From assembly GCF_017874395.1 (NCBI RefSeq), contig NZ_JAGGLJ010000001.1:1-64000 (forward strand): 64,000 bases of DNA. The letters are read 5' to 3'. Below, one piece after another: positions 4,201-52,346 of this stretch. The first letter of the stretch is position 1. Each line of letters starts with the position of its first letter. A program made the position numbers and the translations under genes. Below the pieces are notes generated by a model. That model ran no database searches and was not told the origin of the DNA. It was given only the letters and a program-made list of their open reading frames with translations. The DNA is from Peptoniphilus stercorisuis. GTDB lineage: Bacteria > Bacillota > Clostridia > Tissierellales > Peptoniphilaceae.

Positions 4201-5905
4201 GATTAGTAAGCTTATTTAAAACATTATAATTTATATTTAAAGAGTCACTATCTGGAACAGTTCTTGATTTTAATATATATTCAAGAGTAACTGTATTAGA
4301 ATTATTATTTTTAAAATTACCAGTAGAAGCATCAAATATATAATTTATATTTTTATTTTTAAGTGTGTAGTTATCAATGTTTTGTCCATTAAATTTAACT
4401 ATTTGGTCCATTGTAACCCAATACTCATTTTCAACTTTTTGTCCATTAAAGTCACTTATTATAATATAATTAACTCTTTTTGAATCAAAATTAAAAGTTT
4501 TATTAACACTTCTATTTGGAATAATAGAAAAATTTAATTCTTCTTCTGACATTTCTTTTTTATTTCCATCATCTAAGAAAAGATCAAAATCATAAATATG
4601 ATTACCACTACTTAATACATCTTCTGCAAAAGTGTTTTTTAGAGATGCATTAATTTCGTCATTATAATAAATAGAATCTTCTTTATAATTTTCTTCGTTT
4701 ATTTCATTAGATCTATTTAAAACAGTTAATTTCGCAGAATCAATAAAGTTATTTTCTTCTTTATCCTCTTTATCTTTATCTTCTTTATCTTTATCATCTT
4801 GGTCTACATCTTCTGTATCAACTTTGTCTGTATCTTTTTTATCATCATTTTTAGAATTATTGATTTTTTCTTTTAAATCTTTATCTTCAGTAATTTTTTC
4901 AATTTTATATTCATTAGAAAAAACATTTTTATTACTTTTATTTTCAATTTCATTTAATTTTTTAAAATTAATATTAACACTTTTTTCGTTGTGAATATTT
5001 TTAAAAGAAATTCCTGTGTTTGTTATTTCTATTGGTCTTAAATCTAAGTTTAAATCTTTTTGGAAAATATCAAGATCTTTATCAAATTCAAAATCATATT
5101 CTTCTTCTATTTCTTTAATTGATCTATAGTAACTAGGAATAGAAATATTTGTACTTTCATAACTAGATTTAATTGAAATATTTCTACTTGTTGTATTAAT
5201 ACTAATATTAATTTTATCTTTTGGTCTTACTTTTATATTTCTTGATAAGTTTGATAGCTTTTTTTCTGGGTGATATATATCATTTAGACCGATATTGATT
5301 TTTACAGAATAAATATTTTGACAATTTACATTTATATTTAACTCTTTTAAATCCTTATCAGATAAATCTATTTTATTATCCTTAATGGAATTTTTATCAT
5401 ATATTTTCCCGTTTATTTCATAGTTTAATATTTCATAATTTTTATTAGTATAATTATTTTCAAAATTAATAGTTCCAAAAATATTATATAAAATATCAAA
5501 AATTGAATATTCAAATTTATCGAAATTTTTTGATGGACTTAAAGAGGAATCTTGAATTTTTTCTCCATCTAAAAGAGCAACTACATTTATTTTAGTTTTA
5601 GTATCGAGCTCAATATCTTCATCAATATCTTTTTCTTTATTATCACTATCTTTTTCATCATCATCTAAATCTTCTTTATTATCACTATCTTTTTCATCAT
5701 CATCTAAATCTTCTTTATTATCACTATCTTTTTCATCATCATCATTTAGATTATGAGTTTCATTATTATCTTTTTTTACAATAGTATTTACTGCATTATT
5801 TTTAATATTATTCTTTGCAAAAACAGAACCCATAAAAATATTTACATCAAATAATAGGGAAATAACTAAAGTAAAAAGTATGAGTTTTTTAATTAAATTT
5901 TTCAT
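1211..5905 (-). CDS. Giant secreted surface protein, repeat-rich, lacking its SLH anchor
   Basis: The product is 1564 residues with a strong AGGAGAGG ribosome binding site before ATG 5905. Residues 1-30 form a classical signal peptide (Lys-rich start, hydrophobic core, FAK at the cleavage area). Residues about 50-95 are an acidic linker with tandem DDDEKDSDNKEDL units. The bulk is Asn/Lys/Glu-rich. From about residue 1080 on there are MucBP/Mub-like repeats containing VRYVEK, VVKYIDMDTKE and VAYRDIDTLE cores, each roughly 70-100 residues. Such repeats are typical of adhesin-like wall proteins. The frame stops at TAA 1211-1213 (LLALIVN then stop) but the same frame continues into three SLH domains down to 200, so an anchored protein of about 1900 residues seems to have been the original product. 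As read, the protein would be secreted without an anchor unless the stop is suppressed. The specific ligand is unknown. Confidence 0.8.
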   Translation of the reverse strand: MKNLIKKLILFTLVISLLFDVNIFMGSVFAKNNIKNNAVNTIVKKDNNETHNLNDDDEKDSDNKEDLDDDEKDSDNKEDLDDDEKDSDNKEKDIDEDIELDTKTKINVVALLDGEKIQDSSLSPSKNFDKFEYSIFDILYNIFGTINFENNYTNKNYEILNYEINGKIYDKNSIKDNKIDLSDKDLKELNINVNCQNIYSVKINIGLNDIYHPEKKLSNLSRNIKVRPKDKINISINTTSRNISIKSSYESTNISIPSYYRSIKEIEEEYDFEFDKDLDIFQKDLNLDLRPIEITNTGISFKNIHNEKSVNINFKKLNEIENKSNKNVFSNEYKIEKITEDKDLKEKINNSKNDDKKDTDKVDTEDVDQDDKDKEDKDKEDKEENNFIDSAKLTVLNRSNEINEENYKEDSIYYNDEINASLKNTFAEDVLSSGNHIYDFDLFLDDGNKKEMSEEELNFSIIPNRSVNKTFNFDSKRVNYIIISDFNGQKVENEYWVTMDQIVKFNGQNIDNYTLKNKNINYIFDASTGNFKNNNSNTVTLEYILKSRTVPDSDSLNINYNVLNKLTNQFGADENTNKKHAPRFYKGYKGSEITVSPIRNHDFEDDDYKMSRFRLADDKTKTKILKSDHDFSFQYICNNLTYYIVKYLVSDKDENGNEVIKEFMKPEVKFDKTDTTVKIIAKDLSKYNLYLSEDCINHKDTEIEKDEDGNVINYYKKIKLDEDGKVVFFKYDGNLELPEIKTADITIAFYRHRKECNIEYPYTDKNCTENCKYFQDIKSKTGEYVKFSIPLSETKSIIEMPIIQTIGSGSIKTVKLNNKLLKDLTQFKNKSSGEVAQYDEEHNVYITPDSLNVDLCREKFKDYKSLTEEGNKKYDIEVFYKMTKGDPETLPSILSDVNLNHKYRDGIEFKDINLENQDYSNLITQYLTGTTISPRPISENIGIYEREDEEFNVVEEPNKSFKDGSTLLIDGDKTIIYKYKTKDEFIPKDDFRYKTNYYWINNSSYENLIANDKNIDIKNFTKYSKLGSHGSISPNSQVSPIVVPASNLYSSPEIKYVDLDGKEHLDENGNKYRFRYEYIFEEGPFYDENHMTRKIVKNEQEIQIKYIRHTKVTKLPPNIPGEKDDGSYTVNYLYSKKQNEDGTITNVTPAKSFFKIQGNLLRGTVVGAIAFDFENFGYTHLKEDDEAYKTMVISNNKTNVLNFYYQKKYNSTEIDQLPENCYINYLDYDDKNNMNISPSDITIAFPEEKVSAIAKNFEDIGYFLLAKNKAGKKELTLNYDYEKNTIIENGKYNKIDFYYRKLKDNEYLKNYKVRYVEKLEDGSYLDLIPSKEVKKLELNGFEEYFENPELIEGYRTTDKPYKINEENIKETKEIIFVYTKLGYVVKYIDMDTKEILDISEKKIVNIPENKNGENTIYAIEKPKEIEHHIAISDNKTIDHKGLLEKYSIENNDENNEPITENNQEYAVYKIKYKRVLPFEVAYRDIDTLELIKDNLRTGLKTEDQKEKKAKPIENYIKVGTKKKKVYRKNFFKNPDNPKEGYKTIEYIDEDKNLTKKSLLALIVN
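5640..5742 (-). repeat. 39-bp tandem repeat coding an acidic linker
   Basis: Two full and one partial copy of a 39-bp unit encode DDDEKDSDNKEDL after the signal peptide of the surface protein. The copies are nearly identical at the nucleotide level, so copy number could change by slippage without breaking frame, altering spacer length at the mature N-terminus. Confidence 0.85.
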
Positions 5906-14741: not shown

Positions 14742-15362
14742 ATGAGTATATCAAGAGAAGAAATGATTGAGCTTGATAGAAATGCCATAGAAAATTATGG
14801 TATAAGATCAATTGTTTTAATGGAGAACGCAGCAATGGGTGTATTTAATGAAGTCAAAGACTATAATTCCTTTACTATTATATGTGGAAGTGGAAATAAT
14901 GGTGGAGATGGACTGGCCCTTGGACGACATTTATTACTTAATAAGAAAGATGTAGATATTTTTATTATTGAAGGAAGACAAAGTAATGAATTTACTGAAA
15001 ATCTTGAAATTTTAAAAAAACTTACAAAAAATATTTATTATATTAATAAAAAAGAAGATTTAGATAATTTAGTAAATAGTTTAGAGATAAATGAAATAAG
15101 CATTGATTGTATTTTTGGAACGGGACTTTCAAGAAATATAAGTGGGATTTATAAAGATGTAATAAATTGTATAAATCAACATTCAAATTATACAATTGCT
15201 ATTGATATACCATCAGGTCTTGATGCCAATTCTGGAGATATTTTAGGAATAATGGTTAAATCAGATGAAACTATTACTATTCATGATATAAAACATGGAT
15301 TATTAAAGAACGATTTTGTGGGAAAAATTAAGGAAGTTTATGTAGGGATACCAAAGATATGA
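14742..15362 (+). CDS. nnrE: NAD(P)HX epimerase (YjeF N-terminal domain)
   Basis: The product is 206 residues, the size of the stand-alone epimerase; the C-terminal ADP-dependent dehydratase domain of fused Nnr proteins is absent. ICGSGNNGGDGLALGRHLL is the NGGDG signature, DCIFGTGLSRNISG and AIDIPSGLDANSGDILG are the other conserved blocks. It epimerises damaged R-NAD(P)HX so that it can be repaired. ATG 14742 follows GAGGTGAG. The stop overlaps the start of the MATE gene. The 270 bases upstream are AT-rich and hold no gene. Confidence 0.85.
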   Translation: MSISREEMIELDRNAIENYGIRSIVLMENAAMGVFNEVKDYNSFTIICGSGNNGGDGLALGRHLLLNKKDVDIFIIEGRQSNEFTENLEILKKLTKNIYYINKKEDLDNLVNSLEINEISIDCIFGTGLSRNISGIYKDVINCINQHSNYTIAIDIPSGLDANSGDILGIMVKSDETITIHDIKHGLLKNDFVGKIKEVYVGIPKI

Positions 15363-16753
15363 AAAGATTAGAGAAAAATTTAAGTTTAACAACAGGTTCA
15401 ATAGCATCAGGTATTATTTATTTTGCAATACCTATTTTATTATCAAATTTTTTACAACAACTTTATAATACTGCAGATCTTATGATAGTAGGTAAATTTG
15501 CAGGAAAAAATCCAATGGCAGCTGTTGGAGCAACAGGACAGATTGCAAACTTATTAATTGGACTTTTTTTAGGTCTTACTACGGGAGCATCTGTTGTAGT
15601 TGCTCAACTATTTGCATCTGAAGATCGTGAGAATTTACAAAAGTCAGTTCACACATCTTATGCAATAGCAATAGTAGGAGGGCTTATTTTATCAGTAATT
15701 GGTATAGTTACATCTCCAAAACTTCTTGAGATGTTAAATACTCCTGCTGAAATTATGGATGATGCAGCAGCTTATATGAGAATATTTTTCTTAGGTGTAA
15801 CTCCTCTTCTTATATATAATATGGGAGCTGGAATATTAAGGTCTGTTGGAGATTCAAGAAGACCTTTTAACTTCTTATGTATAAGTGCTGTAATAAATAT
15901 TGTACTAGATTTAATATTTGTTGCAGGTTTTAAAATGTCTGCAAGAGGTGCTGGTTGGGCTACATTTGGTGCTCAAACTGCAGCGGCTATATTAGTTACT
16001 TATAACTTAATAAAATCAGAAAGAAACTTTAGACTTAAAATAAAAGATATTAAATTTGACAAAATTATGTTAAATACAATATTTAAAATAGGAATACCAA
16101 CAGGAATTCAATCAGCAGTTATTTCCTTATCAAATGTTTTGATTCAAGCAAAGATAAATGCTTTTGGACCAGATGCAATTGCAGGAATGGCAGCTGAAAC
16201 TAAAATAGATGGATTTATATTTATGGCCTTACAGGCAATAGCACTTGCAGCTACTACTTTTGCAGGACAAAACTATGGAGCTAAAAAACACGAAAGAATT
16301 AAACAAGGTGTAAAAGTTTCAATAGGACTTGTAATAGGTCTTGCAGCAGTTCTTTCACTAATAGGAGCAATATTTGCAGAAGAACTTATTGGAATATTTA
16401 ATAAGGATCCAGCTGTAATAAAATATGGAGCAGAATGTTTTTATGTTTTAGCAACATCCTACTGGATATATGGAATAAGTGAAGTCTTTGGAGGATTTAT
16501 AAGAGGTGCAGGTAAAGCTATGCCACCAATGATTATTTCAATATTTTCAATGTGTGGACTTAGAATGGTTTGGATTTATACAGCACTTGAAGTATGGCCA
16601 AGTATGAGAATAATATATTTATCCTATCCAATATCTTGGATTGTGACTTGTATTTTAACTACATTATATTATTTCTTCGGAAAGTGGAGACCAAAAGAAC
16701 AACTAAAAGAACAACTAAAAGAACAACTAAAAGAACAAAAACAAAGTATATAA
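15359..16753 (+). CDS. MATE-family multidrug/cation efflux transporter
   Basis: The product is 464 residues with the expected twelve hydrophobic segments in two repeated halves. NFLQQLYNTADLMIVGKFAG near residue 30 is the classic MATE first-helix motif, and AGQNYGAKKHERIKQG near residue 305 is the second-half equivalent. It exports organic cations using Na+ or H+; substrates cannot be read off. ATG 15359 overlaps the preceding stop (ATGA). The C-terminus ends in four copies of KEQL produced by a 12-bp tandem repeat. Confidence 0.9.
   Translation: MKRLEKNLSLTTGSIASGIIYFAIPILLSNFLQQLYNTADLMIVGKFAGKNPMAAVGATGQIANLLIGLFLGLTTGASVVVAQLFASEDRENLQKSVHTSYAIAIVGGLILSVIGIVTSPKLLEMLNTPAEIMDDAAAYMRIFFLGVTPLLIYNMGAGILRSVGDSRRPFNFLCISAVINIVLDLIFVAGFKMSARGAGWATFGAQTAAAILVTYNLIKSERNFRLKIKDIKFDKIMLNTIFKIGIPTGIQSAVISLSNVLIQAKINAFGPDAIAGMAAETKIDGFIFMALQAIALAATTFAGQNYGAKKHERIKQGVKVSIGLVIGLAAVLSLIGAIFAEELIGIFNKDPAVIKYGAECFYVLATSYWIYGISEVFGGFIRGAGKAMPPMIISIFSMCGLRMVWIYTALEVWPSMRIIYLSYPISWIVTCILTTLYYFFGKWRPKEQLKEQLKEQLKEQKQSI
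16693..16739 (+). repeat. 12-bp tandem repeat at the MATE C-terminus
   Basis: Four perfect or near-perfect 12-bp units (AAAAGAACAACT) encode KEQLKEQLKEQLKEQ. The unit is a multiple of three, so slippage would change only tail length. Confidence 0.85.
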
Positions 16754-16757
16754 AAAT

Positions 16758-16788
16758 TAAACTGTCTTAGAAATAGGGCAGTTTTTTT
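16758..16788 (+). terminator. Rho-independent terminator
   Basis: The stem AAACTGTC / GGGCAGTTT with a following T-run lies directly behind the MATE gene. Confidence 0.75.
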
Positions 16789-16844
16789 ATGTAAAATTTT
16801 AAATTTAAAAAAATATTTGATATTATATTAATGAGGTGAAAAAT

Positions 16845-18383
16845 TTGAAAGAAGATTTTATAAAAAAACCAAAGGATAATAGGTTGATTTTAAGAATGGT
16901 TTTTGATGGTATATTAATTGGAATTATATCAGGATTTTTCTCAGTACTATATAGATACATAATTTCTAAAACTAATATAGTAAGAGAATATATTTATAGT
17001 TTTAAAGATATACCTCATATTATTCTTTTTCTTTTCTTATTTATATTAATGGCATTAATAATGGCCAAATTACTAAAATGGGCACCCTTATCAGGTGGAT
17101 CAGGTATTCCACAAATAAGAGCAGAAGTTTTAGGAAGAGTAAGTATGGATGAAAATAAAACTTTAATATCAAAATATATTGGAGGAACATTAGGTAATAT
17201 TGCAGGACTATCACTAGGTCGAGAAGGTCCATCAATTCAAATAGGTGGAGCTATTGCTAAAAAAATAGCGGAAATTTTAAAAAGAGATGAAATTGAAACA
17301 AAATATATGATTACAGCAGGATCTTCAGCAGGACTTGCAGCAGCTTTTAATGCTCCACTTGCAGGAACATTATTTTCTCTAGAGGAAATTCATAAGAGTT
17401 TTTCACATTTTGTTCTTGTACCTTGTCTTATAGCATCTGTTATAGCAAATTATATTTCCTTTTTATTATTAGGTGAAGAGTCAGCTTTTTCTTTTAGTGT
17501 AAAAGAAACTCTTCCAGTAAAATACATTTATATTGCAATTATTTTAGGAATAATAACAGGGCTTGTTGGAATACTATTTAATATAGGACTTGTTAAGACT
17601 CAAAAATTATATAAAAAGACAAAATTAAATCAAAGTGCAAGACTTATAATAGCAATGGTTGTGGCACTTTTTGTAGGATATAACTTTCACTTTGCAACAG
17701 GTGGAGGGCATGAGCTTATAGAAAGTATTTCTGGGGAGTTTTATCCAATTAAATTTCTATTAGTAGTATTAGTAGTAAAACTAATTTATACATGGATTTC
17801 CTATGGCTCAGGAGCTCAAGGTGGTATATTTTTGCCAGTGCTTGTGCTTGGAGGAGTAAGTGGGGCAATATTTTTTAAATTAGTAAGTCCTGTACTTAAT
17901 ATAGAAGAATATTATATTAATTTTATAATACTAGGAATGGCAGGAGTTTTAACATCAGTTGTAAGAGCACCGATTATGAGCATACTTCTTGTAACAGAAA
18001 TGACAGGATCTTTTTCTCATTTAATATCTCTAACAGCAGTTTCAATAGTTGCATTTTTTATAGCAGAGTCCTTTCATAATCCACCAATTTACGAAACGCT
18101 TTTTGATGGAATAATGAAAAACTTAAAAATCAAAGAAGTAAGTGAAGAAGAAGGATATGGAATATATAAATATATAATTTCTGATATTTCAAAATGTACT
18201 GGAAAAACCCTTGAAGAAATTGAATTTCCTCATCATTTAATAGTAGCTTCAATAGAAAGAGATGGAGTTGAAATAGTGCCAACATCAAAGGATAAACTTC
18301 TAAATGGAGATAAGATAACTGTTATTGCAAAGGAAAAATATCAGTATAATATAGATAAATATTTTAAAAGTGAAAATTTATAA
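16845..18383 (+). CDS. ClC-type chloride transporter with C-terminal TrkA-C domain
   Basis: The product is about 512 residues. TTG 16845 has GAGGTGA 5-10 bases upstream; the GTG at 16836 lies inside that site. Filter motifs are GSGIPQIRAEV (near residue 85), GREGPSIQIGG (near 126) and GAQGGIFLPVLVLGG (near 330). The Glu in GREGP is the external gating glutamate, and the Glu pair in LFSLEEIHKSF matches the internal proton glutamate, so a Cl-/H+ antiporter is likely. The last 75 residues form an RCK/TrkA-C domain (ISKCTGKTLEEIEFP). The final codons and the terminator are repeated at 20924. Confidence 0.9.
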   Translation: MKEDFIKKPKDNRLILRMVFDGILIGIISGFFSVLYRYIISKTNIVREYIYSFKDIPHIILFLFLFILMALIMAKLLKWAPLSGGSGIPQIRAEVLGRVSMDENKTLISKYIGGTLGNIAGLSLGREGPSIQIGGAIAKKIAEILKRDEIETKYMITAGSSAGLAAAFNAPLAGTLFSLEEIHKSFSHFVLVPCLIASVIANYISFLLLGEESAFSFSVKETLPVKYIYIAIILGIITGLVGILFNIGLVKTQKLYKKTKLNQSARLIIAMVVALFVGYNFHFATGGGHELIESISGEFYPIKFLLVVLVVKLIYTWISYGSGAQGGIFLPVLVLGGVSGAIFFKLVSPVLNIEEYYINFIILGMAGVLTSVVRAPIMSILLVTEMTGSFSHLISLTAVSIVAFFIAESFHNPPIYETLFDGIMKNLKIKEVSEEEGYGIYKYIISDISKCTGKTLEEIEFPHHLIVASIERDGVEIVPTSKDKLLNGDKITVIAKEKYQYNIDKYFKSENL

Positions 18384-18430
18384 CAAAAATAGGCCAAAAG
18401 GCCTATTTTTAAAACTTTGTTCTTTTTAGA
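18348..18430 (+). repeat. Left direct repeat flanking the R-M cassette
   Basis: The last 12 codons of the ClC gene plus its terminator (stem 18385-18410, AAAAATAGGCC/GGCCTATTTTT). Bases 18348-18410 are identical to 20924-20986; after a short divergence the text ACTTTGTTCTTTTTA is shared as well. The repeat also carries what look like promoter bases for the downstream gene, so each copy can supply both a terminator and a promoter. Confidence 0.9.
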
Positions 18431-18477
18431 GATATAAATTATAATAGAAATACAAATAGAAATTAAAAGGTGATAAA

Positions 18478-19314
18478 TTGAGTAATGTAGAATTAAAACC
18501 AATAGTTAAGTGGGTTGGTGGAAAAAGACAGAGTTTAAGTGAGTTAGAGAAGTATATACCTGATGATTATAATAATTATATTGAACCATTTATAGGTGGT
18601 GGTGCATTATTTTTTAAGTTGCAACCAAAAAAAGCTATTATTAATGATATAAATGGAGAACTAATAAACTTATACAATATTATTAAAAGTGATGTATCTG
18701 AACTTATTTTAGATTTAAATAAACATAAAAATAATAAAGAATATTTTTATGAAATTAGAGAAATAGACAGAAGTATAGATGATTTTAATAAATTATCAAA
18801 TATAGAAAAAGCATCTAGGATGCTTTATTTGAATAAGACATGTTTTAATGGTATGTATAGAGTTAATAAGAAAAATGAGTTTAATGTTCCTTATGGAAAT
18901 TATAAGAATCCAAAAATAATAGATGAATTAAATTTATATAATTTGAATAAATATTTAAATAAAAATGATATTAAGATATTTAATAAAGATTTTGAAGATA
19001 TACTTATGATGGCTAAAAAAGAAGATTTTGTATATTTAGATCCACCATATTATCCTATATCAGATACATCAAATTTCACAGATTATAGTAAAGATGGTTT
19101 TAATAAAGAGGACCAAATTAGATTGAAAGAAAATTGTGATAAGTTAAATAAAAAAAATATTAATTTTTTACAATCTAATTCTTATTGTGATTTTATTTTA
19201 GATTTATATAGTGATTATAATATTATTGAAATATATTCTAAGAGAGTAATAAATTCACAAGGAGATAAAAGAGGAGAAGTTAAAGAAGTGTTAATTACAA
19301 ACATGGAGGTTTAG
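18478..19314 (+). CDS. DNA adenine methyltransferase, Dam/DpnII (GATC) type
   Basis: The product is 278 residues from TTG 18478 behind AAAAGGTGAT. KPIVKWVGGKRQ is motif X, YIEPFIGGGALFF is motif I (AdoMet binding) and DFVYLDPPYYP near residue 182 is the catalytic DPPY motif, in the order of alpha-class N6-adenine methylases. The size and the neighbouring DpnII-like nuclease point to GATC as target. It protects host DNA from that nuclease. It is the first gene of a compact operon (2-base gap to the next). Confidence 0.9.
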   Translation: MSNVELKPIVKWVGGKRQSLSELEKYIPDDYNNYIEPFIGGGALFFKLQPKKAIINDINGELINLYNIIKSDVSELILDLNKHKNNKEYFYEIREIDRSIDDFNKLSNIEKASRMLYLNKTCFNGMYRVNKKNEFNVPYGNYKNPKIIDELNLYNLNKYLNKNDIKIFNKDFEDILMMAKKEDFVYLDPPYYPISDTSNFTDYSKDGFNKEDQIRLKENCDKLNKKNINFLQSNSYCDFILDLYSDYNIIEIYSKRVINSQGDKRGEVKEVLITNMEV

Positions 19315-19316
19315 TT

Positions 19317-20183
19317 ATGGAGAGAAATTTCAATGATTTAATTAATAACATGAGAGATTCAATTAAAGGGTACGACTATTTTGTTTGTTGGGATAAAGTG
19401 ATTGGAAATACAGGTAAAGTTGAAATACCATTAAATATTTTAAATACTTTAATAGGAAAGCAAAATATTTTGGATGAATTTAGATATATAATTAAAGAAT
19501 ATCCAGAAGTAGTACCTGTTATTCCAATGTGTTTAGCAATTCGAGAAAGTAAAATAGATATTTTTGATAATCAAGAATCAATTATTTATAAATTTTATAA
19601 AAAGAAAGAATATACAAATGAAGAAATTCAGCATATAGTAGATTTTTCAGAAAAAACAGGCTTTTTAAATATATTAAAAAACAAAAATATTAAAAATTTA
19701 TCAGATTATTATTTTGGAATTGAAGTTGGATTAGATACTAATGCAAGAAAAAATAGAACAGGGAATTTAATGGAAAATTTGGTAGAGCAATATTTAAAAA
19801 AGATGTGTAAACAAAATAATATAAGTTATATTAGTCAAGCTACATCAAAAAAAATTGAGTCTGAGTTTAATGAACAAGTACCAACAGATAAATCTAGTCG
19901 TAGGTATGATTTTGCAATAAAAAAAGGAAAAGAGATTATTTTAATAGAAACTAATTTTTATAATGGTGGCGGTTCAAAATTAAAAGCAACTGCTGGAGAA
20001 TTTATTACATTAAATAATTTAATAAATAAAAATGAGAATACAAAATTTGTATGGATAACTGATGGGAAGGGATGGGAAACAGCAAAAAATCCTTTAGAGG
20101 AAGCTTTTAATGAAATAGATAATATATTGAATATAAAAGATTTAGAAAATGGGGTTTTAGAGGATATTGTAATAGGAGGATAG
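19317..20183 (+). CDS. Type II restriction endonuclease, DpnII/MboI family
   Basis: The product is 288 residues, the normal family length. FVCWDKVIGNTGKVEIPL at the N-terminus and GNLMENLVEQYLKK in the middle are DpnII-family blocks. The nuclease centre is RRYDFAIKKGKEIILIETNFYNGGGSKL near residue 200-225, with Asp in YDF and Glu-x-Asn in IETN in place of the canonical ExK, as in this family. It would cut unmethylated GATC. It lies between two methylase genes with 2-base gaps, so expression is coupled. Confidence 0.88.
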   Translation: MERNFNDLINNMRDSIKGYDYFVCWDKVIGNTGKVEIPLNILNTLIGKQNILDEFRYIIKEYPEVVPVIPMCLAIRESKIDIFDNQESIIYKFYKKKEYTNEEIQHIVDFSEKTGFLNILKNKNIKNLSDYYFGIEVGLDTNARKNRTGNLMENLVEQYLKKMCKQNNISYISQATSKKIESEFNEQVPTDKSSRRYDFAIKKGKEIILIETNFYNGGGSKLKATAGEFITLNNLINKNENTKFVWITDGKGWETAKNPLEEAFNEIDNILNIKDLENGVLEDIVIGG

Positions 20184-20185
20184 TA

Positions 20186-20923
20186 TTGAATATAGATAGA
20201 TTTGAATTAGAAGATTTTGAAATTGAAAATACGTCTGTTTGGAGTTTTCCGAAAAGAGGAAAATGGGCAACTCATGATTCTAAATATAGAGGGAATTGGT
20301 CTCCATACATACCGAGAAATATTTTGAAAAGATATTCAAAAGAAGATGATTTAGTATTAGATCAATTTGTAGGTTCAGGAACGAGTTTAATTGAAGCTAA
20401 AATATTAAATCGAAATATAATAGGAGTTGATATAAATCCTAAAGCATTGAAGATATGTGAAGAGAAAATTAAATTTGATTCTAATACTAAATCCAATGTT
20501 ACATTGAGAAAAGGAGATTCTAGAAATCTTGACTTTTTAAAGAGTGATAGTATAGATTTAATAATGATGCATCCTCCTTATTCAAATATAATAAAATATA
20601 GCGAAGACATTGATGGAGATTTATCTCTTATGAAACTTGATGATTTTTATAAATCTATGAAATTGGTAGCAAAGGAAAGCTATAGGGTGTTAAAAGAAGA
20701 AAAATTTTGTGCAGTTCTAATGGGAGATACTAGGAAAAAAGGTCATGTAATTCCAATGGGATTTAATATAATGAATATATTTATTGAAGAAGGGTTTATA
20801 TTAAAAGAGATAGTTATAAAAGAACAGCATAATTGTAGGGCAACGGGATTCTGGAAAACAAACAGTATTAAATATAATTTTTTATTGTTAGCTCATGAAT
20901 ATCTTTTTATTTTTCATAAATAA
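20186..20923 (+). CDS. Second DNA methyltransferase of the DpnII-type cassette
   Basis: The product is 245 residues from TTG 20186, with GGAGG within the end of the nuclease gene. SVWSFPKRGKWATHDSKYRGNWSPYIPRN opens the protein, VLDQFVGSGTSLIEAK is AdoMet motif I, and MMHPPYSNIIKYS is the catalytic PPY motif with His in front instead of Asp/Asn/Ser. This arrangement is seen in a family often annotated as TRM11-like or cytosine-N4 methylases. It differs from the classical DpnA second methylase, so its base and target are uncertain; it may methylate another position of the same site or single-stranded DNA. Confidence 0.75.
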   Translation: MNIDRFELEDFEIENTSVWSFPKRGKWATHDSKYRGNWSPYIPRNILKRYSKEDDLVLDQFVGSGTSLIEAKILNRNIIGVDINPKALKICEEKIKFDSNTKSNVTLRKGDSRNLDFLKSDSIDLIMMHPPYSNIIKYSEDIDGDLSLMKLDDFYKSMKLVAKESYRVLKEEKFCAVLMGDTRKKGHVIPMGFNIMNIFIEEGFILKEIVIKEQHNCRATGFWKTNSIKYNFLLLAHEYLFIFHK

Positions 20924-21013
20924 AATATAGATAAATATTTTAAAAGTGAAAATTTATAACAAAAATAGGCCAAAAGGCCTATTTTTTGTATAAAAAACTT
21001 TGTTCTTTTTATA
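20924..21013 (+). repeat. Right direct repeat flanking the R-M cassette
   Basis: A second copy of the ClC 3' end and terminator, but here non-coding and starting one base after the methylase stop. Bases 20924-20986 equal 18348-18410. The following text (ACTTTGTTCTTTTTATATATATAATC) gives a TATAAT-like -10 for the GNAT-dnaD operon. Confidence 0.9.
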
Positions 21014-21085
21014 TATATAATCTATAATATAGAATAATCATTAAAATTTATGAAGAAATAAAACTATTATATTAGGGTTGTGAAT

Positions 21086-21694
21086 ATGCTAAAGAGTAAA
21101 AATTTTTCTTATAGGAAAATGAAATTAGAAGATGTATATGATTTTAAAAAATGGGGCAGACATAATACTCCATTACTTGATGATTATAATTTTTATGAAG
21201 ATACAGATATTGAATTGAAAGACTGGTTTAATTGGAAGACGCAAAATCCAAATAATATGTATTTTTCCATATTTAAGGAAGATTTTGCAATAGGCTATAT
21301 TAGTTTTAAATATTTTAATAAATTAATAAAGTCTGCAACTTTAGGTATTGTTTTAGATCCTAGTGAGATAAATAAGGGATATGGCAGTGAAATTTTACTA
21401 TATATGATGGATTATTATTTTAATAGTTTAGATCAAAAAAAGATTTCTTTAAAGGTTGCAACTTTTAACAAAAGAGCTATTAGTTTATATAGTAAAGTTG
21501 GATTTAAAAAAGTTTCAACTCATTTGAATTTTTATGAAAATGGATATTTTGATGATACAATAGTTGATTATAGAGAAAATAGTGATTCTTTTATAAATTT
21601 TATGGGGAAAACTCTTTTTTATGTAGATAAGATGGTTTTAGATAGAAATAAGTTCAATGGAGTGATAAAATGTATTTCAAACTTCAAAATTTAA
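21086..21694 (+). CDS. GNAT-family N-acetyltransferase
   Basis: The product is about 202 residues. ATG 21086 is preferred over GTG 21080 because AGGG is placed suitably upstream. The core acetyl-CoA-binding region is LGIVLDPSEINKGYGSEILLYMM (motif A, with Gln/Arg-x-x-Gly replaced by NKGYG), followed by ATFNKRAISLYSKVGFKK (motif B). The acceptor is unknown. It overlaps dnaD by 25 bases, so the operon is tight; the first gene immediately follows the right R-M repeat. Confidence 0.8.
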   Translation: MLKSKNFSYRKMKLEDVYDFKKWGRHNTPLLDDYNFYEDTDIELKDWFNWKTQNPNNMYFSIFKEDFAIGYISFKYFNKLIKSATLGIVLDPSEINKGYGSEILLYMMDYYFNSLDQKKISLKVATFNKRAISLYSKVGFKKVSTHLNFYENGYFDDTIVDYRENSDSFINFMGKTLFYVDKMVLDRNKFNGVIKCISNFKI

Positions 21695-22683
21695 GTATGG
21701 ATTTAGGAGATACTCCTATTGAAAATATATTTATTAATGATTTTATGCCAATGGCTGATGGGAATTTTGTTAAGGTCTATTTAATGGGGTATAAACTTGC
21801 AAAGGAATCGATGGGGCTTAAAAGCTTTGATTCTAATTTAATTGCAGATTTATTAGGTCTTATTGAATCAGATGTACTTAGGGCCTGGGACTATTGGGAG
21901 AAAAATGGAGTTATAAAAAAAGTCTTTGTTGGAGATGAGAAAAATTTTAGTATACAATTTGTAAATTTAAAGGAATTATATATTAAAAATATCTACTCTG
22001 TTCCTGAAAAAGATACAAGAAGAAATCAAAATTCAATACTTGATGATCCAAAGATTGCAAATTTATTGTCTCAAGCTGATAAACTTATGGGCGCAAGGCT
22101 TACTATTGCACAGAAACAAGATATTGCAAATTGGCGAGATATTTACAATATGCCTGTGGAGTTAATAATTGAGGCTTTTAATTATTCGATAAATGTAAAA
22201 GAAATAAATAGTTTAAGTTATATTGAAGCAATTGTTAGAAATTGGTCAGAAAAAAACATTAGAACTATGGAAGATGTTGAAAAAAGTTATATTGAATATG
22301 ATGAGAAGTATTATAGATTTATGAAAATCAAAAATAGAATAGGTATAGGTTTTAAACCTTATACTAAAGTTGATTTTGATATTGTAAATGATTGGTTTGA
22401 AAAATATAATTTTGATATTGATGTTGTTTATGCAGCTTGTGATAAGTGTATAAATATTAGTAACCCAAATCTTGGATATGTAAATAGAATACTTATGAAT
22501 TGGCAAGAGAAGGGCATTAAAAATCTTGAAGATATTAAAACTAAAGATGTAAAACCTAAATCAAGTGTTCAAAAGACGAAATTTCATAATTTTAAACAAC
22601 TTTCTGATGATTATTCTGAGGATGATTTAGAAGATCTTGCAAGAAAGAAACGTGAGGATTTTCTAAAGACGCTAGGAGAGTAA
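21670..22683 (+). CDS. dnaD: DnaD-domain replication initiation protein
   Basis: The product is 337 residues. The N-terminal winged-helix part (residues about 20-110) contains SMGLKSFDSNLIADLLGLIESDVLRAWDYWEKNGVIKK. Two DnaD-like (DnaB_2) domains follow with AQKQDIANWRDIYNMPVELIIEAFNYSI (about 140) and DFDIVNDWFEKYNFDIDVV (about 235), each ending in the YIEAIVRNW / YVNRILMNW signature. It takes part in loading of the replicative helicase with the DnaC-like ATPase next to it (1-base gap). Confidence 0.85.
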   Translation: MYFKLQNLSMDLGDTPIENIFINDFMPMADGNFVKVYLMGYKLAKESMGLKSFDSNLIADLLGLIESDVLRAWDYWEKNGVIKKVFVGDEKNFSIQFVNLKELYIKNIYSVPEKDTRRNQNSILDDPKIANLLSQADKLMGARLTIAQKQDIANWRDIYNMPVELIIEAFNYSINVKEINSLSYIEAIVRNWSEKNIRTMEDVEKSYIEYDEKYYRFMKIKNRIGIGFKPYTKVDFDIVNDWFEKYNFDIDVVYAACDKCINISNPNLGYVNRILMNWQEKGIKNLEDIKTKDVKPKSSVQKTKFHNFKQLSDDYSEDDLEDLARKKREDFLKTLGE

Positions 22684-22684
22684 T

Positions 22685-23659
22685 ATGAAGGATATTTTTA
22701 GAGATATTGAAAGAGAATATGAGGAGTTAAGAAGAGAAAATAATAGGATTTTAGAATTTAGAACTTCTAAGATTTACTCTGAAATTCCACAAATTAAAGA
22801 AATAGATGAATTTATAAAAAATATTGGATTTATTGCTGCAAAGGAGCAAATTTTAAATCCTTCAGAAGATGCTCGTGAAAGAGCAAATGCTGAGATAATA
22901 GCCCTTAGGGGCAAAAAAGAAAGCTTATTAAAGAATGCTGGATATTCTAGAGATTATCTTGATGAGATTTATTCTTGTAATAAATGCAAGGATACAGGAA
23001 AACTTCCAAATGGCAAGAGATGTTCTTGTATGGAAAATAAACTTGCAAGAGAACTTTATAATATTAGTAATCTTTCCTATACATTGAAAAGAGAAAATTT
23101 TAATACCTTTGATCTAGGTGTTTTCTCTAAAGAAAAATATAATGATGAGGATTTATCTCCTAGGGAAAATATGGAGATGATTCTTAAAATTTCAAGAGAT
23201 TTTATCAAGACTTTTAATGATGAAAATGACAGAAATCTATTGTTCTATGGTCCAACAGGACAGGGTAAGACCTTTATGCTAAATTGTATTGCAAAGGAAC
23301 TTTTAGATGAAAATGTAAATGTAGTTTATCAAACTGCTTTTACACTTTGTGAAGTAATGGAGGAGCAAAAGTTTAGAAGAACTGAAATAAGTAATTTAAA
23401 GTACTCTCAACTTTTTAGCTCAGATCTACTTATTGTAGATGACCTTGGAATAGAAATGACTAATTCCTTTACTGCTTCTGGAATTTTTAACATTATTAAC
23501 AAAAGACTACTTGGCGGTAAAAAAACTTTAATATCAACAAATTTATCACCAAAAGAGTTGTCAAGTACTTATACTGATAGAGTCTTTTCAAGAGTGTTTC
23601 AAAAATTTATTCCTATTAAATTTTATGGGAATGATTTAAGATTAAAAACAAATTCTTAA
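22685..23659 (+). CDS. dnaC: DnaC-like helicase-loader ATPase
   Basis: The product is 324 residues. A zinc-type cysteine cluster (YSCNKCKDTGKLPNGKRCSC, about residue 98) precedes the AAA+ domain with Walker A GPTGQGKT (about 190) and Walker B LLIVDDLG (about 258). The sensor/arginine-finger region is LISTNLSPKEL ... YTDRVFSRVF. It is paired with DnaD, so loading of the DnaB helicase at the origin or at restart sites is the likely role. An IstB of an IS21 element is excluded by the absence of a transposase and by the cysteine cluster. Confidence 0.87.
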   Translation: MKDIFRDIEREYEELRRENNRILEFRTSKIYSEIPQIKEIDEFIKNIGFIAAKEQILNPSEDARERANAEIIALRGKKESLLKNAGYSRDYLDEIYSCNKCKDTGKLPNGKRCSCMENKLARELYNISNLSYTLKRENFNTFDLGVFSKEKYNDEDLSPRENMEMILKISRDFIKTFNDENDRNLLFYGPTGQGKTFMLNCIAKELLDENVNVVYQTAFTLCEVMEEQKFRRTEISNLKYSQLFSSDLLIVDDLGIEMTNSFTASGIFNIINKRLLGGKKTLISTNLSPKELSSTYTDRVFSRVFQKFIPIKFYGNDLRLKTNS

Positions 23660-23673
23660 GAGGTGAAAAGAAG

Positions 23674-24873
23674 ATGAAAGTATCACAAAGAGTAAAAGAA
23701 GTTCCCTATTCGGCAATAAGAAAGTTAACACCATATGCCGATGCGGCGAAGAAAAGTGGCAAAAAAATATATCACTTAAATATTGGTGAGCCAGATACTA
23801 GAACTCCTAAGGAGTTTTTCGAGGCCGTTCAAGATTTCAATCAAGATAGAGTGGGATATGCCCCATCAAAGGGACTTTTAGAGCTTAGAGAAGCAACAAG
23901 TAAATATTATAAGGATCGCGCGATCGCCTATGATGCAGAAGATGAAATTATCATAACTGCAGGTGCAAGTGAAGCCTTAGTTTTTGCTTTAATAGCTGTT
24001 ACAGACTTAGGTGATAATGTTCTTACTTGTAATCCATTTTACTCTAATTACTATACAATCTTTAGACAAATTGGCATCAAACCTCAAACCTTTGATACAA
24101 AAGTAGAAGATGGATATAAACTTCCAGATTATGAGACTATATTAAATTCAGTAAATGAAGATACTAAGGCAGTACTTCTTTCAAATCCTTCAAATCCAAC
24201 TGGAGCTGTATATACAGAAGAAGAGATTAGAAGAGTTGCAAGAGTTGCTATAGAAAAAGATTTATTTATTATAGCTGATGAAGTATATAGAGAGTTCGTA
24301 TATGATAATAAAGAATTTATGTCCTTTGCAGAAATCGAGGGAATAGAAGATAGACTTATTTTACTTGATTCTATTTCAAAGAGATTTGGAGCATGTGGAG
24401 CTAGAATTGGTTCTATTGCAAGTAAAAATAAAGATCTTATGACTGAGATAGTTAAACTTGCAACAGGAAGACTTGCAGCACCAACTCTTGAACAAATTGG
24501 TGCAACAAAATTATATGATGTTCAAGATAGTTATTTTAAAGAAATCAATGAAGAATACCAAAGAAGAAGAGACTGTGTATATGAAGAGCTTCAAAAAATA
24601 GATGGAGTTAAAACTTATGCACCTAAGGGAGCATTTTATGTAATGCCTGAACTTCCAGTAGAGGATGCTGAAGATTTTGCAAAGTGGATGCTAACTGATT
24701 TTGATTTAGATGGTGAAACTGTAATGGTTGCTCCAGGATTTGGTTTTTATCATGATTCTAATGTTGGAAAGTCACAAATAAGACTTGCTTTTGTATTAAA
24801 TTGCGAAGATTTGAAAAAAGCTATTAATCTTTTGAAAATAGGATTAGATGAATATAAAAAAATAAATAGTTAA
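23674..24873 (+). CDS. Class I/II pyridoxal-phosphate aminotransferase
   Basis: The product is 399 residues. KIYHLNIGEPDTRTP at the start, LSNPSNPTGAVYTEEE (Asn binding PLP), IADEVYREFVYDN (Asp and Tyr) and DSISKRFGACGARIGS (Schiff-base lysine about residue 239) are all present. It resembles aspartate aminotransferases of the Ib group; the amino donor cannot be fixed from sequence. AGGTGAAAAG precedes ATG 23674, 14 bases after dnaC. Confidence 0.87.
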   Translation: MKVSQRVKEVPYSAIRKLTPYADAAKKSGKKIYHLNIGEPDTRTPKEFFEAVQDFNQDRVGYAPSKGLLELREATSKYYKDRAIAYDAEDEIIITAGASEALVFALIAVTDLGDNVLTCNPFYSNYYTIFRQIGIKPQTFDTKVEDGYKLPDYETILNSVNEDTKAVLLSNPSNPTGAVYTEEEIRRVARVAIEKDLFIIADEVYREFVYDNKEFMSFAEIEGIEDRLILLDSISKRFGACGARIGSIASKNKDLMTEIVKLATGRLAAPTLEQIGATKLYDVQDSYFKEINEEYQRRRDCVYEELQKIDGVKTYAPKGAFYVMPELPVEDAEDFAKWMLTDFDLDGETVMVAPGFGFYHDSNVGKSQIRLAFVLNCEDLKKAINLLKIGLDEYKKINS

Positions 24874-35133: not shown

Positions 35134-35169
35134 TTTTTTTAAAAACTGTAATTTAAAATTTGGATATGT
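35134..35169 (+). repeat. 36-bp direct repeat, left copy
   Basis: A T-run followed by AAAAACTGTAATTTAAAA and TTTGGATATGT; the identical 36 bases recur at 41218-41253 just upstream of cas3. The two copies bracket the IS200 relic and the whole D-serine island. Behind the left copy comes GAGAGATGAAAATG, which looks like an orphan ribosome binding site and start codon. Confidence 0.9.
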
Positions 35170-40918: not shown

Positions 40919-41279
40919 ATTAAATGAAACTTTAAAGATGATATTGTTTTTATGACAAAATTTATTAATAAAACCATAAAAAATAAATATATAAAATTTT
41001 ATGATATTATAAAAAATGATAGTTATTAGAGATAGGTAAATAGTAATATAATATATAATTAATTAAATAACGATAAAATAAATAAAAATTATTATTTGAA
41101 TTATAAAATTTGTTAAAGAAATAAATATTAAATAGTAGAACTATATATATTAATGGACCATGATTTTAAGTTTATATTGTTACTGTAATGAAAAGAATTG
41201 ATGAGTCCAGTGAGAATTTTTTTTAAAAACTGTAATTTAAAATTTGGATATGTTAATATACAAGTAAAGAGGTGATTAT
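40919..41279. other. Gene-free region before cas3, with right 36-bp repeat
   Basis: AT-rich and without a gene. Bases 41218-41253 are the right copy of the 36-bp repeat found at 35134. They run directly into TATGTTAATATACAAGTA (41249-41266), which recurs at 51000-51017 before the second effector cassette, then AAAGAGGTGATT, the cas3 ribosome binding site. The region therefore probably holds the cas promoter. Confidence 0.65.
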
Positions 41280-43651: not shown

Positions 43652-44380
43652 ATGAAAAATCAAATTGAATATAAAGTTTGGGCAAAATATGCACTTTTTT
43701 CAGATCCAATAATGAGAGTTGGTGGAGAAAAGTATTCATATCAAATCCCAACCTATGAAGCATTAAAGGGTATTACAGAATCGATTTATTGGAAACCATC
43801 TATTATATGGTATATAGATCGAGTAAGAATAGTAAATAAAATAGAAAGTCAATCTGTGGGAATAAAGACACTAAAATACAATGAAAGAAATAAAGAAAAA
43901 AAATCAGACCTTTCAATGTATTCCTATTTAAGAGATGTAGAGTATCATGTTGTTGCACATTTTGAATTTAATGAAAATAGGCCTGATTTAAAAAAAGATT
44001 GGAATGTAAATAAACATAGTGCAATTGCAAAGAGATCTTTAAATAGTGGAGGAAGAAGAGATATATTTCTTGGAACACGTGAGTGTCAAGGATATGTTGC
44101 TCCTTTTAGCTTTAATGAGGGTAAATCCTACTATGAAAATATAGAAGAGATGTACTTTGGCACAATGGTTCATGGAGTAGACTATCCAGATGAAAGTAAA
44201 GATGGAAATTTTAATATAAGATTTTGTAGACCTATTATGAAAAATGGAATAATAGAATTTGAAAGACCAGAAGATATTGAAATAGTAAGACTACTTAGAA
44301 AATATGATAAAAAAGAATTTAATAAAAATAATTTTAAAAATGTAGAAGCAACATATGATGAGATATTTGGAGGTGAATAA
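43652..44380 (+). CDS. cas5c: Cas5c, crRNA-processing Cascade subunit, copy 1
   Basis: The product is 242 residues. YALFSDPIMRVGGEKYSYQIPTYEAL starts the RAMP fold, and SIYWKPSIIWYI and NVNKHSAIAKR (about residue 117) contain the Tyr and Lys-His residues that correspond to the catalytic set of type I-C Cas5. GGRRDIFLGTRECQGYV is the glycine-rich signature. In type I-C, Cas5 replaces Cas6 and cuts the repeat RNA. ATG 43652 follows GAGGTGAAG; the stop overlaps cas8c. Copy 2 is at 51619. Confidence 0.95.
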   Translation: MKNQIEYKVWAKYALFSDPIMRVGGEKYSYQIPTYEALKGITESIYWKPSIIWYIDRVRIVNKIESQSVGIKTLKYNERNKEKKSDLSMYSYLRDVEYHVVAHFEFNENRPDLKKDWNVNKHSAIAKRSLNSGGRRDIFLGTRECQGYVAPFSFNEGKSYYENIEEMYFGTMVHGVDYPDESKDGNFNIRFCRPIMKNGIIEFERPEDIEIVRLLRKYDKKEFNKNNFKNVEATYDEIFGGE

Positions 44381-46320
44381 TGAGTCTTTTAGAAAATTTA
44401 TATAATTATTATGATTATATGATTGAAAATGAAAAAGATTTAGATATTGAATTAGAGCCTTTTGGATTTACGACAAAAAAAGCCTATGTGGATATAAATT
44501 TAAATAGGGATAAAGGATTTATAAGTGCTAATTTAGTAGATGAAGATGAATATAAAACGATAATACCCGCAACAAGTGACTCTCAAAGTAGAACAAGAGG
44601 AATTATTGCGCATCCATTATTTGACACTATTCAATATATTTCAAAAAACTTAGAAGAATATTCAACTTTTAAAAATAAAAAACCTATTTTGGAAAATGAA
44701 GATCATTACAAATCTTACATTGAAGAATTAAGTTCTTTTATAAAATCAGTTGAAAAAGATAGTGATAAATCCTATGACAAAGAAAAAGTACTATCATATC
44801 TAAATACAATAAAAAACTATATAGAAAGTGGAAGTATAATAGATGACCTTGTAAAAGAGAAAATTTTATACTTAGATGAAAATCAAAAACTTACAAATAA
44901 AGATGAAAATAATGAAAAAATTGAACTAGAAAAAATAAGTAGTGGCAATTTTGAAAAGGCATTAGTTAAATTTAGAATAAGTGATAAAAAAAATAAAAGA
45001 GGTTATGAAATAGAAAAAGATAAAGACTTGCAAATAGCTTATTATAATCATCTAAAAAATCAGAAATATGAAAAAGATATTGACTATATAACAGGTGAAA
45101 TATCACCAATCTCAACAAAACATCAAAAATATATTTTAAATGCAGGTTCAGGTGCAAAATTAATATCGTCAAATGATACTGCTAACTTCTCATTTAAAGG
45201 AAGATTTATAGACGATCAAGAAGCCCTTTCCATAGGATATTATACTAGTGAAAAAGCTCATATGGCACTAAGGTATTTAATAAAAAATCAAGCAAGTAGA
45301 CAAAAAGAAAGAGTTTTTTTAATATTTGGAAATGAAAATCAAAGTATTCCAAAAATAGGAGGTAATCTTTTTGATGATAGTGATTTAGAAATAAAAGATA
45401 TAACAAGAAGAAATTATGCAGAAAAAATAAACTCTATGTTAAATGGTTATAGAAAAAAAGAATTTAAAAGAGAAGACAATATAAATATTTTAATATTAGA
45501 CTCACCAGTACCAGGAAGAGTTTCAGTTCTTTACTATAAAGAAATAAATATAAATGATTATTTAGATAAACTTGAAAAATGGTATATAGATACATTTTGG
45601 GAATTTAAATACAAAGGTCAATATTATAACGAAACTCCTAGAATAAAAGAAATAATAGAATCTGCCTATGGAAAAATGGTAAATGATAGTCTTTATAAAA
45701 ATACTTATGAAAGGCTATTTATATCTATAGTAGATGGAAGAAAAATACCAATAGATATCGTAAAAAAATTATATCAAAGAGCATCAAACCCAATGAGTTT
45801 TGAGAAAGATAATAAAAAAAAGAAAGATAATAAAAAAAAGAAAGAGTATGAATATGAAAAAGTACTGTCAGTAGCATGTAGTGTAATAAGAAATTTTTAT
45901 ATAAATAGAAAAGAAAAGGAGTATAACTATATGACACTTGAATATGAAAACAAAGATAGGTCCTATCTATATGGAAGACTTCTTGCAGTGGCAGATGAAG
46001 TGGAAAATTATGCAATATATATTAAAGATGCAGGAAAAAGAACTACAAATGCAAAGAGATATATGAGTTCGTTTTCTAGAAGTCCTTATAAAATTTGGGG
46101 AATAATTCACAATGCAATACTTCCGTACCTAGATACAGTAGGCGTAAAAACTAACTATTATAACGAATTATTAGAAGAAATTAGTTCGAAATTTAATGAA
46201 GATGATTTTTCAAATAATAAAGCCTTAGAAGAGAATTATTTACTTAGTTATTATTCACAAAAATACGAAATAAGACAAAGAATAAAAGAACTTTCAAAGA
46301 AAAATAAGGAGGAAAAATAA
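44380..46320 (+). CDS. cas8c: Cas8c (Csd1), large Cascade subunit, copy 1
   Basis: The product is 646 residues, starting MSLLENLYNYYDYM. Conserved Csd1 blocks include TSDSQSRTRGIIAHPLFDTIQYI (about residue 67), YITGEISPISTKHQKYILNAGSGAKLISSNDTANFSFKGRF (about 235) and the YLYGRLLAVADEVE region near the end. The large subunit recognises the PAM and opens the duplex. A small Lys-rich tandem (KKDNKKKKD, about residue 485) is specific to this copy. Overlaps cas5c and cas7c by 1 base each. Confidence 0.93.
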   Translation: MSLLENLYNYYDYMIENEKDLDIELEPFGFTTKKAYVDINLNRDKGFISANLVDEDEYKTIIPATSDSQSRTRGIIAHPLFDTIQYISKNLEEYSTFKNKKPILENEDHYKSYIEELSSFIKSVEKDSDKSYDKEKVLSYLNTIKNYIESGSIIDDLVKEKILYLDENQKLTNKDENNEKIELEKISSGNFEKALVKFRISDKKNKRGYEIEKDKDLQIAYYNHLKNQKYEKDIDYITGEISPISTKHQKYILNAGSGAKLISSNDTANFSFKGRFIDDQEALSIGYYTSEKAHMALRYLIKNQASRQKERVFLIFGNENQSIPKIGGNLFDDSDLEIKDITRRNYAEKINSMLNGYRKKEFKREDNINILILDSPVPGRVSVLYYKEININDYLDKLEKWYIDTFWEFKYKGQYYNETPRIKEIIESAYGKMVNDSLYKNTYERLFISIVDGRKIPIDIVKKLYQRASNPMSFEKDNKKKKDNKKKKEYEYEKVLSVACSVIRNFYINRKEKEYNYMTLEYENKDRSYLYGRLLAVADEVENYAIYIKDAGKRTTNAKRYMSSFSRSPYKIWGIIHNAILPYLDTVGVKTNYYNELLEEISSKFNEDDFSNNKALEENYLLSYYSQKYEIRQRIKELSKKNKEEK

Positions 46321-47189
46321 TGATATTAGAAAATAAAATTGATTTTATAATGTACTTTACAGTAATAAAGGCAAATCCAAATGGAGATCCACTAAATGGA
46401 AATAGACCAAGAATAGATTATAACGGATATGGAGAAGTATCAGATGTATGTATTAAAAGAAAAATAAGAGATAGACTAATTGAATCTGGAGAAGATGTAT
46501 TTGTTCAAAATGATGATAAAAGAGTAGATGAACATAGAAGTCTTAAAGATAGATATGATGCTTTAAAAAAAGAGAAGGGATTAGAAAAAGCTGATGAAGA
46601 TGTTCTTGCAAAAGCAGTATGTGAAAATTGGATAGATGTGAGAAGTTTTGGTCAAGTATTTGCCTTTTCTGGAGACAAGCTTTCAATAGGAATTCGTGGA
46701 CCTGTAAGTATTCAAACAGCAGAAAGTAAAGAAGAAGTAGAAATATCTTCAATGCAAATTACAAAATCTGTAAATAGTACAACAAACAAAAAGAATCCAT
46801 CAGCTAAAACACCAGATACAATGGGAATGAAACATAGAGTTGAATTTGGAACATATAAAGTAGTTGGAACAATAAGTCCACAACTAGCAGAAAAAACTGG
46901 ATTTACAGAAAAAGATGCGGAAACTGTAAAAAAAGCATTAATTAATATATTTGAAAATGATTATTCATCAGCAAGACCAGCAGGAAGTATGGAAGTAAAT
47001 AAATTATATTGGTTTAAACATAACTCTAAACTTGGTAAGTATTCACCAGCTGAAATTCATAGTAGTGTAGACTTAAAAATTATAGATCCTGAAAAAAATA
47101 GCTTTGACAGATATGAAATAGTAGAAAATATACCTAAAGAATTTAAAAAAGAAGAAGAAGGAAAAATAGTAAACTTAATAGGTAAATAA
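46320..47189 (+). CDS. cas7c: Cas7c (Csd2), Cascade backbone subunit, copy 1
   Basis: The product is 289 residues. DFIMYFTVIKANPNGDPLNGNRPRIDYNGYGEVSDVCIKRKIRD is the Csd2 start; DVRSFGQVFAF and GIRGPVSIQTAESKE and SSARPAGSMEVNKLYWFKH are further signatures. Several copies polymerise along the crRNA. It overlaps cas8c at ATGA and is followed one base later by cas4. Confidence 0.95.
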   Translation: MILENKIDFIMYFTVIKANPNGDPLNGNRPRIDYNGYGEVSDVCIKRKIRDRLIESGEDVFVQNDDKRVDEHRSLKDRYDALKKEKGLEKADEDVLAKAVCENWIDVRSFGQVFAFSGDKLSIGIRGPVSIQTAESKEEVEISSMQITKSVNSTTNKKNPSAKTPDTMGMKHRVEFGTYKVVGTISPQLAEKTGFTEKDAETVKKALINIFENDYSSARPAGSMEVNKLYWFKHNSKLGKYSPAEIHSSVDLKIIDPEKNSFDRYEIVENIPKEFKKEEEGKIVNLIGK

Positions 47190-47190
47190 A

Positions 47191-47838
47191 ATGGAAGAAG
47201 ACTATCTTCATATATCAAGCATTCAACATTTTGTATTTTGTAAAAGACAATGGGCTATACTTTATTTAGAAGATCAATGGCAAGAAAATTTTTTAACAGC
47301 AGAAGGAAGAGTAATTCATGAAAGAGCACATGATAATAACCTTAAAGAAAGTAGAAAAGATTATTTTGTAATAAGAAGTATGCCAATCAAATCACATACT
47401 TACAAACTAACAGGAGAATGTGACATTGTAGAATTTATAAAAGATGAAAATGGAATAAACATAAAAGAAAAAAAAGATAAATATATTATATATCCAGTGG
47501 AATATAAAAGAGGAAATATTAAAAAAGATGAAAGTGATAAAATGCAACTTTTAGCACAATGTATATCTCTTGAAGAAATGTTTGTAACAAAAATAAGAAA
47601 AGGAGCTATTTATTATAATAAAACTCGAAAAAGAGAAGAAATTAATTTCACAGAAGAAGATATAAATAACTTTAAAAACATTGTAGAAGAAATGCATAGA
47701 ATATATAAACAAAAGAAAAATCCAAAAGTAAGAATTTCAAAAAAGTGTAAAAGTTGTTCAGTAAATGAAATATGTATGCCAAATTTAAGCAATAAAGAAG
47801 ATGTAGTTAATTATATAAATAGAAGGTTAGATTTATGA
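47191..47838 (+). CDS. cas4: Cas4 adaptation exonuclease
   Basis: The product is 215 residues. SIQHFVFCKRQWAILYLEDQW carries the first Fe-S cysteine, GECDIVEF and YPVEYKRGN are RecB-like nuclease motifs II and III, and CKSCSVNEIC near the end supplies three further cysteines. It trims prespacers at the PAM side with Cas1-Cas2 in type I-C systems. The end overlaps cas1 by 4 bases. Confidence 0.95.
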   Translation: MEEDYLHISSIQHFVFCKRQWAILYLEDQWQENFLTAEGRVIHERAHDNNLKESRKDYFVIRSMPIKSHTYKLTGECDIVEFIKDENGINIKEKKDKYIIYPVEYKRGNIKKDESDKMQLLAQCISLEEMFVTKIRKGAIYYNKTRKREEINFTEEDINNFKNIVEEMHRIYKQKKNPKVRISKKCKSCSVNEICMPNLSNKEDVVNYINRRLDL

Positions 47839-48863: not shown

Positions 48864-48867
48864 AAAA

Positions 48868-49158: not shown

Positions 49159-49296
49159 TGCGAAAGTATATTAAACATAAAACACCTATAAGCTTCGCGC
49201 AAAAAACGAAGAATATAGCATATAAATAGCTGGTTTTAATATTACTAAAAAGTATAAAAATAGAATTATACAGCCTAAACGGCTTAAAAACTAGTT
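49159..49296 (+). promoter_or_regulatory. CRISPR leader
   Basis: The 138 bases between cas2 and the first repeat are AT-rich and contain no gene. The position next to cas2, together with repeat decay only at the far end of the array, makes this the leader, from which the array is transcribed in plus direction. A hairpin-like GCTTCGCGC ... GAAG is near 49190-49215. Confidence 0.75.
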
Positions 49297-50899: not shown

Positions 50900-50948
50900 T
50901 ATCTACTGTTAAGTTGATACTAGGGTTAAGAGATGTATGGATAGAAAT

Positions 50949-52344: not shown

Positions 52345-52346
52345 TT

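Follow-up and report, generated by a model that had tools for sequence, protein, structure and literature searches.

A DpnII-type cassette lies between clc and the GNAT operon

We analyzed a 64,000-nucleotide stretch (the window) of a 180-kb contig of Peptoniphilus stercorisuis. Between an intact clc gene and the operon GNAT-dnaB2-dnaC lie three genes, M1, R and M2, which, judged from their predicted products, are a complete DpnII-type restriction-modification (R-M) system (Table 1). None of the three reading frames is interrupted. Their identities were established by comparisons with Pfam, NCBIfam, PADLOC and PDB. M1 matches the DpnM structure 2dpm over its full length (2.7e-78), and M2 has 73% DNA identity to a gene of a Fusobacterium vincentii cassette. 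Like dpnM, dpnA and dpnB of Streptococcus pneumoniae (DpnII/MboI-type), the cassette combines a Dam-type methylase, a DpnII endonuclease and a second methylase. Unlike that system, its order is M1-R-M2, and M2 matches the DpnA structures only in part. M1-R-M2 was the most frequent arrangement in our survey of three-gene DpnII cassettes.

From what is known of the family, we presume that the cassette would cut incoming DNA that is unmethylated at GATC. The window itself contains 129 GATC sites versus 152 expected, which is no strong avoidance.

The inserted segment consists of a 30-base leader and the three R-M genes, and nothing else. We found no insertion sequence (IS), integrase or phage gene among the open reading frames and Pfam matches of the insert and its neighbours, and no tRNA gene within the 64-kb window.

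Table 1. Features of the clc-GNAT region (window coordinates)
Feature	Position	Strand	Remarks
clc, voltage-gated chloride channel family with TrkA-C domain	16836..18383	+	515 aa, intact; Pfam PF00654, E 2.7e-90; its last 36 bases open the left repeat
Left copy of duplicated block	18345..18447	+	clc 3' end, terminator, promoter-like site
Terminator hairpin, left copy	18385..18410	+	AAAAATAGGCC-AAAA-GGCCTATTTTT; -14.3 kcal/mol, z -3.9
Promoter-like site, left copy	18417..18445	+	TTGTTC-17-TATAAT, now upstream of the R-M genes; predicted function
Inserted segment	18448..20923	+	30-base leader with ribosome-binding site, three R-M genes; left edge uncertain by ~15 bases, right end is the stop codon of the third gene
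M1, Dam/DpnM-type adenine methyltransferase	18478..19314	+	278 aa, TTG start, DPPY motif; PF02086 2.5e-72; TIGR00571 5.6e-94
R, DpnII-family restriction endonuclease	19317..20183	+	288 aa; PF04556, E 1.7e-100, full length; alignment with 14 relatives
M2, second amino-methyltransferase	20186..20923	+	245 aa, TTG start, FVGSGT and HPPY motifs; PADLOC MTase_II 2.5e-115
Right copy of duplicated block	20921..21030	+	non-coding clc fragment, terminator with 7-base insertion lengthening the palindrome, promoter-like site
Promoter-like site, right copy	21000..21028	+	TTGTTC-17-TATAAT, upstream of the GNAT-dnaB2-dnaC operon; predicted function
GNAT acetyltransferase	21080..21694	+	PF13302; first gene of the original downstream operon GNAT-dnaB2-dnaC

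The cassette is flanked by two copies of a host block

We found that the cassette is bracketed by a direct repeat. Positions 18348-18410 and 20924-20986 are identical at 63 of 63 bases, at the coordinates given in an earlier, sequence-only reading of this DNA. In a chance control of 200 order-2 Markov sequences for the same 4.5 kb, the longest exact repeat was 19 bases (mean 14). The second shared block claimed in that reading is also real: 18411-18446 and 20994-21029 are 89% identical, and their alignment score of 54 was matched by none of 5000 shuffles and by one of 5000 random pairs drawn from the contig. BLAST merged both blocks into a single alignment (18345-18452 and 20921-21036; 88% identity including gaps). 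The whole duplication comprises approximately 100 bases, with 95 of 100 aligned positions identical and a 7-base insertion in the right copy. The previously proposed span of 18348-21013 thus had the right coordinates, but the full duplication runs about 20 bases further, to ~21030.

The two copies bracket the three R-M genes as proposed. M1, R and M2 lie between them, and the exact right repeat opens at the first base after the stop codon of M2 (20921-20923). The left copy is the true end of clc and contains the clc stop codon (18381-18383). The right copy, which ends ~50 bases upstream of the GNAT start, is a non-coding duplicate beside the original downstream operon, and that operon is kept in relatives.

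It is scarcely credible that the two copies arose separately as terminator-promoter elements of similar function, or that they are an artefact of assembly. At 27% GC, terminators and promoters may resemble one another, but complete identity over 63 bases, 36 of them clc coding sequence, excludes convergence. An artefact is unlikely because both copies are internal to the 180-kb contig and a typical sequencing read would be longer than the repeat.

Both copies contain a terminator hairpin and a promoter-like site. The predicted stability of the hairpin is -17 kcal/mol in the right copy versus -14.3 in the left, and both are better than all shuffles. The 7-base insertion extends the palindrome of the right terminator (TTTATAACAAAAATAGGCC / GGCCTATTTTTTGTATAAA) and would be the expected product of a template switch at a quasi-palindrome. 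The TTGTTC-17-TATAAT sites, although their -35 hexamer is weak, probably act as promoters.

The other long direct repeats listed on the contig are tandem arrays, a CRISPR array, paralogous genes and one 36-base pair. The last is an exact repeat, TTTTTTTAAAAACTGTAATTTAAAATTTGGATATGT, at 35134-35169 and 41218-41253, 6 kb apart; its first copy adjoins a hairpin in a non-coding stretch, and the second is just upstream of a cas3-like gene at 41280. A type I-C-like CRISPR locus occupies 43652-55106 of the window. Its cas5-cas8-cas7 genes occur in two sets on either side of a repeat array at ~49296-50898: the first at 43652-47189, together with cas4 and cas1 to 48863, and the second at 51619-55106. 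Parts of the second set are ~75% identical to the first. Low-complexity sequence at 5633-5743 contains a perfect tandem repeat of 39 bases (2.8 copies).

The flanking repeat is unique among DpnII loci surveyed

We scored direct repeats between the two flanks at each of 100 DpnII loci, including the window. The window scored 164. The next best score was 44, near the level of control pairs, and comparable flanks were found at none of the 99 other loci. We therefore reject the idea that DpnII cassettes carry such flanks in general. Because they are unique among the 100 loci, the flanks belong to this insertion event and not to the cassette family. Either the DpnII cassette does not usually insert with such flanks, or their traces fade.

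The runners-up, L063 and L055, had short or promoter-like similarities near the control level. At L055 (Fusobacterium vincentii NZ_CP084075.1, L055:2390-5756), the DpnII cassette contains an extra gene between R and M2, and its flanks share a weak 58-base similarity that is promoter- and ribosome-binding-site-like and near the control level.

The site is empty in other species of the genus

We compared the locus with four congeners (G001-G004), each represented by one genome per species. GNAT is conserved in all five genomes of the genus. In the nearest relative, G004 (clc protein 76% identical), the gene order is MATE-clc-GNAT-dnaB2-dnaC, without R-M genes, and the clc-GNAT gap contains a single terminator and a single copy of the promoter-like site that occurs in the left and right copies here. 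The G004 genome is 76% complete, but the clc-GNAT site is fully assembled. In G001-G003, MATE is followed directly by GNAT-dnaB2-dnaC, with neither clc nor R-M genes at the site. A search for DpnII endonucleases gave no match in G001, G002 or G004 and only a marginal one in G003, located elsewhere.

The empty site that the sequence-only reading had proposed to look for in relatives is thus present in G004, where clc is followed by the GNAT operon with a single block. Two repeat copies without R-M genes, which that reading had named as the refuting case because the repeat would then predate the insertion, were seen in none of the four congeners.

The interval from MATE to GNAT (14742-24873) resembles a nested gain site: it is empty in G001-G003, contains only clc in G004, and contains clc and the R-M genes here. 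At the 3' end of the MATE gene is a perfect 12-base tandem repeat (3.8 copies, 16693-16738) that encodes C-terminal LKEQ units and may vary in length among strains.

The duplication is younger than the split from the nearest relative

We found that the two copies resemble each other more than the left copy resembles the G004 site. Left and right differ at 5 of 100 sites, whereas left and G004 differ at 17 of 93 (18%; Fisher p = 0.006); clc in G004 is 23% diverged, so its site only approximates the ancestral target. Because the copies differ by 5% and not 18%, the duplication is younger than the split from the G004 species. Barring gene conversion, this indicates a gain in this lineage rather than a loss in G004.

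These numbers bear on the notion that the R-M genes and both repeats were ancestral in this branch of the genus and were lost in G004 by recombination between the repeats. Such recombination would leave a single copy, as is seen in G004. However, the copies should then differ about as much as the left copy and G004 do, unless gene conversion has masked their age. In addition, the endonuclease does not group with those of family members (below), and G001-G003 also have no R-M genes at the site. We consider an ancestral cassette very unlikely.

Polarized against G004, three of the five substitutions (columns 98, 99 and edge column 107) arose in the right copy, as did nearly all of the 7-base insertion. 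Of the two remaining substitutions, one is derived in the left copy and one has no assignable side. None of the five lies in the first 63 bases; they cluster in the final third of the block (p = 0.006), and four are within the promoter spacer; both hexamers are unchanged. This clustering is not predicted by a single clean duplication followed by even divergence, and may partly reflect gene conversion, constraint or a mosaic origin.

The clustering could also mark a crossover between slightly different alleles, as would be expected if a small circle with the R-M genes plus a copy of the ~100-base block, such as one excised from the same locus in another strain, had entered the empty site by a single crossover (Campbell-type integration). 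Integration of this kind yields exactly the end structure that we observed. Against it, the block must already have adjoined the M2 stop codon in the circle, which shifts the origin of the duplication elsewhere. Furthermore, no plasmid or phage backbone is left in the insert, and a search of viral contigs for the repeat gave no match. On balance, integration of such a circle seems unlikely.

Our results are most consistent with insertion of an acquired DpnII-type R-M operon between clc and GNAT-dnaB2-dnaC after the split from G004, with duplication of ~100 target bases; from the sequence comparisons, we think that this is probably what happened. The earlier proposal, insertion with a long target duplication or integration by homology, is supported by the single-copy empty site in G004, and the two routes look alike when there is one genome per species.

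The cassette was probably acquired from outside the family

In a tree of 105 endonucleases, R is sister to two Clostridia/Bacillota MAGs and a Bathycorpusculum MAG (support 98/86); it groups with distant Clostridia/Bathyarchaeota and apart from the 11 other copies in its own taxonomic family. Its best identity is 45% within the family versus 52-54% outside it. The simplest reading of these relationships is that the cassette was horizontally acquired from an unsampled source.

None of the viral contigs, phages or plasmids indicated a vehicle. In viral contigs, the identity of DpnII endonucleases to R did not exceed 41% and no copy of the repeat was found, so no phage vehicle is indicated; phages gave one match, at 39%. 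DNA similarity to plasmids was limited to single genes.

A model for the insertion and its consequences

We suggest that a horizontally acquired R-M operon landed between clc and GNAT-dnaB2-dnaC in this lineage. The insertion itself would have created the ~100-base duplication, as has been proposed for Helicobacter R-M insertions; one possible route is joining by repair where the target was broken or cut in a staggered way. From the anatomy of the locus, the duplicated promoter would drive M1-R-M2 and the duplicated terminator would end the M1-R-M2 transcript. Because both elements were duplicated, clc would keep its terminator, GNAT would keep its promoter, and the insert would be transcriptionally self-contained. 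The repeats should also allow rare precise deletion or tandem amplification, and it is reasonable to infer that the cassette could be lost precisely by recombination between them.

According to reviews, the insertion of some R-M systems is accompanied by target duplications that are long and variable, with sizes of around 100 bp (PMC3874152); the first description came from a comparison of two Helicobacter strains (PMC1643837; see also Nobusato et al. 2000, Gene 259:99, and Furuta et al. 2010, as PMC3874152 and PMC1643837 describe them). The repeat-flanked form may undergo amplification when its repeats cross over unequally (PMC3031569). The locus described here is like these insertions in that one genome has the R-M system and a relative lacks it, the direct ~100-base target copies are single in the empty site, and there is no mobile-element gene. 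Unlike the published duplications, the block here runs from the end of a gene through a terminator into a promoter-like site. The published cases compare two strains of one species, whereas our evidence comes from two species that are 23% apart in clc. The arrangement also resembles IS-flanked R-M composite units (PMC3031569), in which the R-M genes lie between direct repeats that would permit deletion or amplification; unlike those, the repeats here are host DNA and not IS. In the defining features that we examined at the sequence level, the window is a clear, fairly young further case of the known insertion class.

Although R-M systems are seldom carried by known mobile elements, they turn over fast, and the way in which complete systems reach a genome is an open question (PMC4176335). 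The locus in P. stercorisuis provides a clean case far from Helicobacter, with an empty-site relative and with copies that, at 5% divergence, are young enough for the junctions to be read. It raises the question of whether duplicated target blocks at R-M insertions regularly hold a terminator and a promoter. That insertion favours targets whose duplicated ~100 bases hold a terminator and then a promoter is a speculative and rather improbable extension of our results. If it were true, a bare R-M operon would gain ready-made, insulated expression and leave its neighbours unharmed, and long target duplication would be more than a scar of repair, namely an expression strategy favoured by selection.
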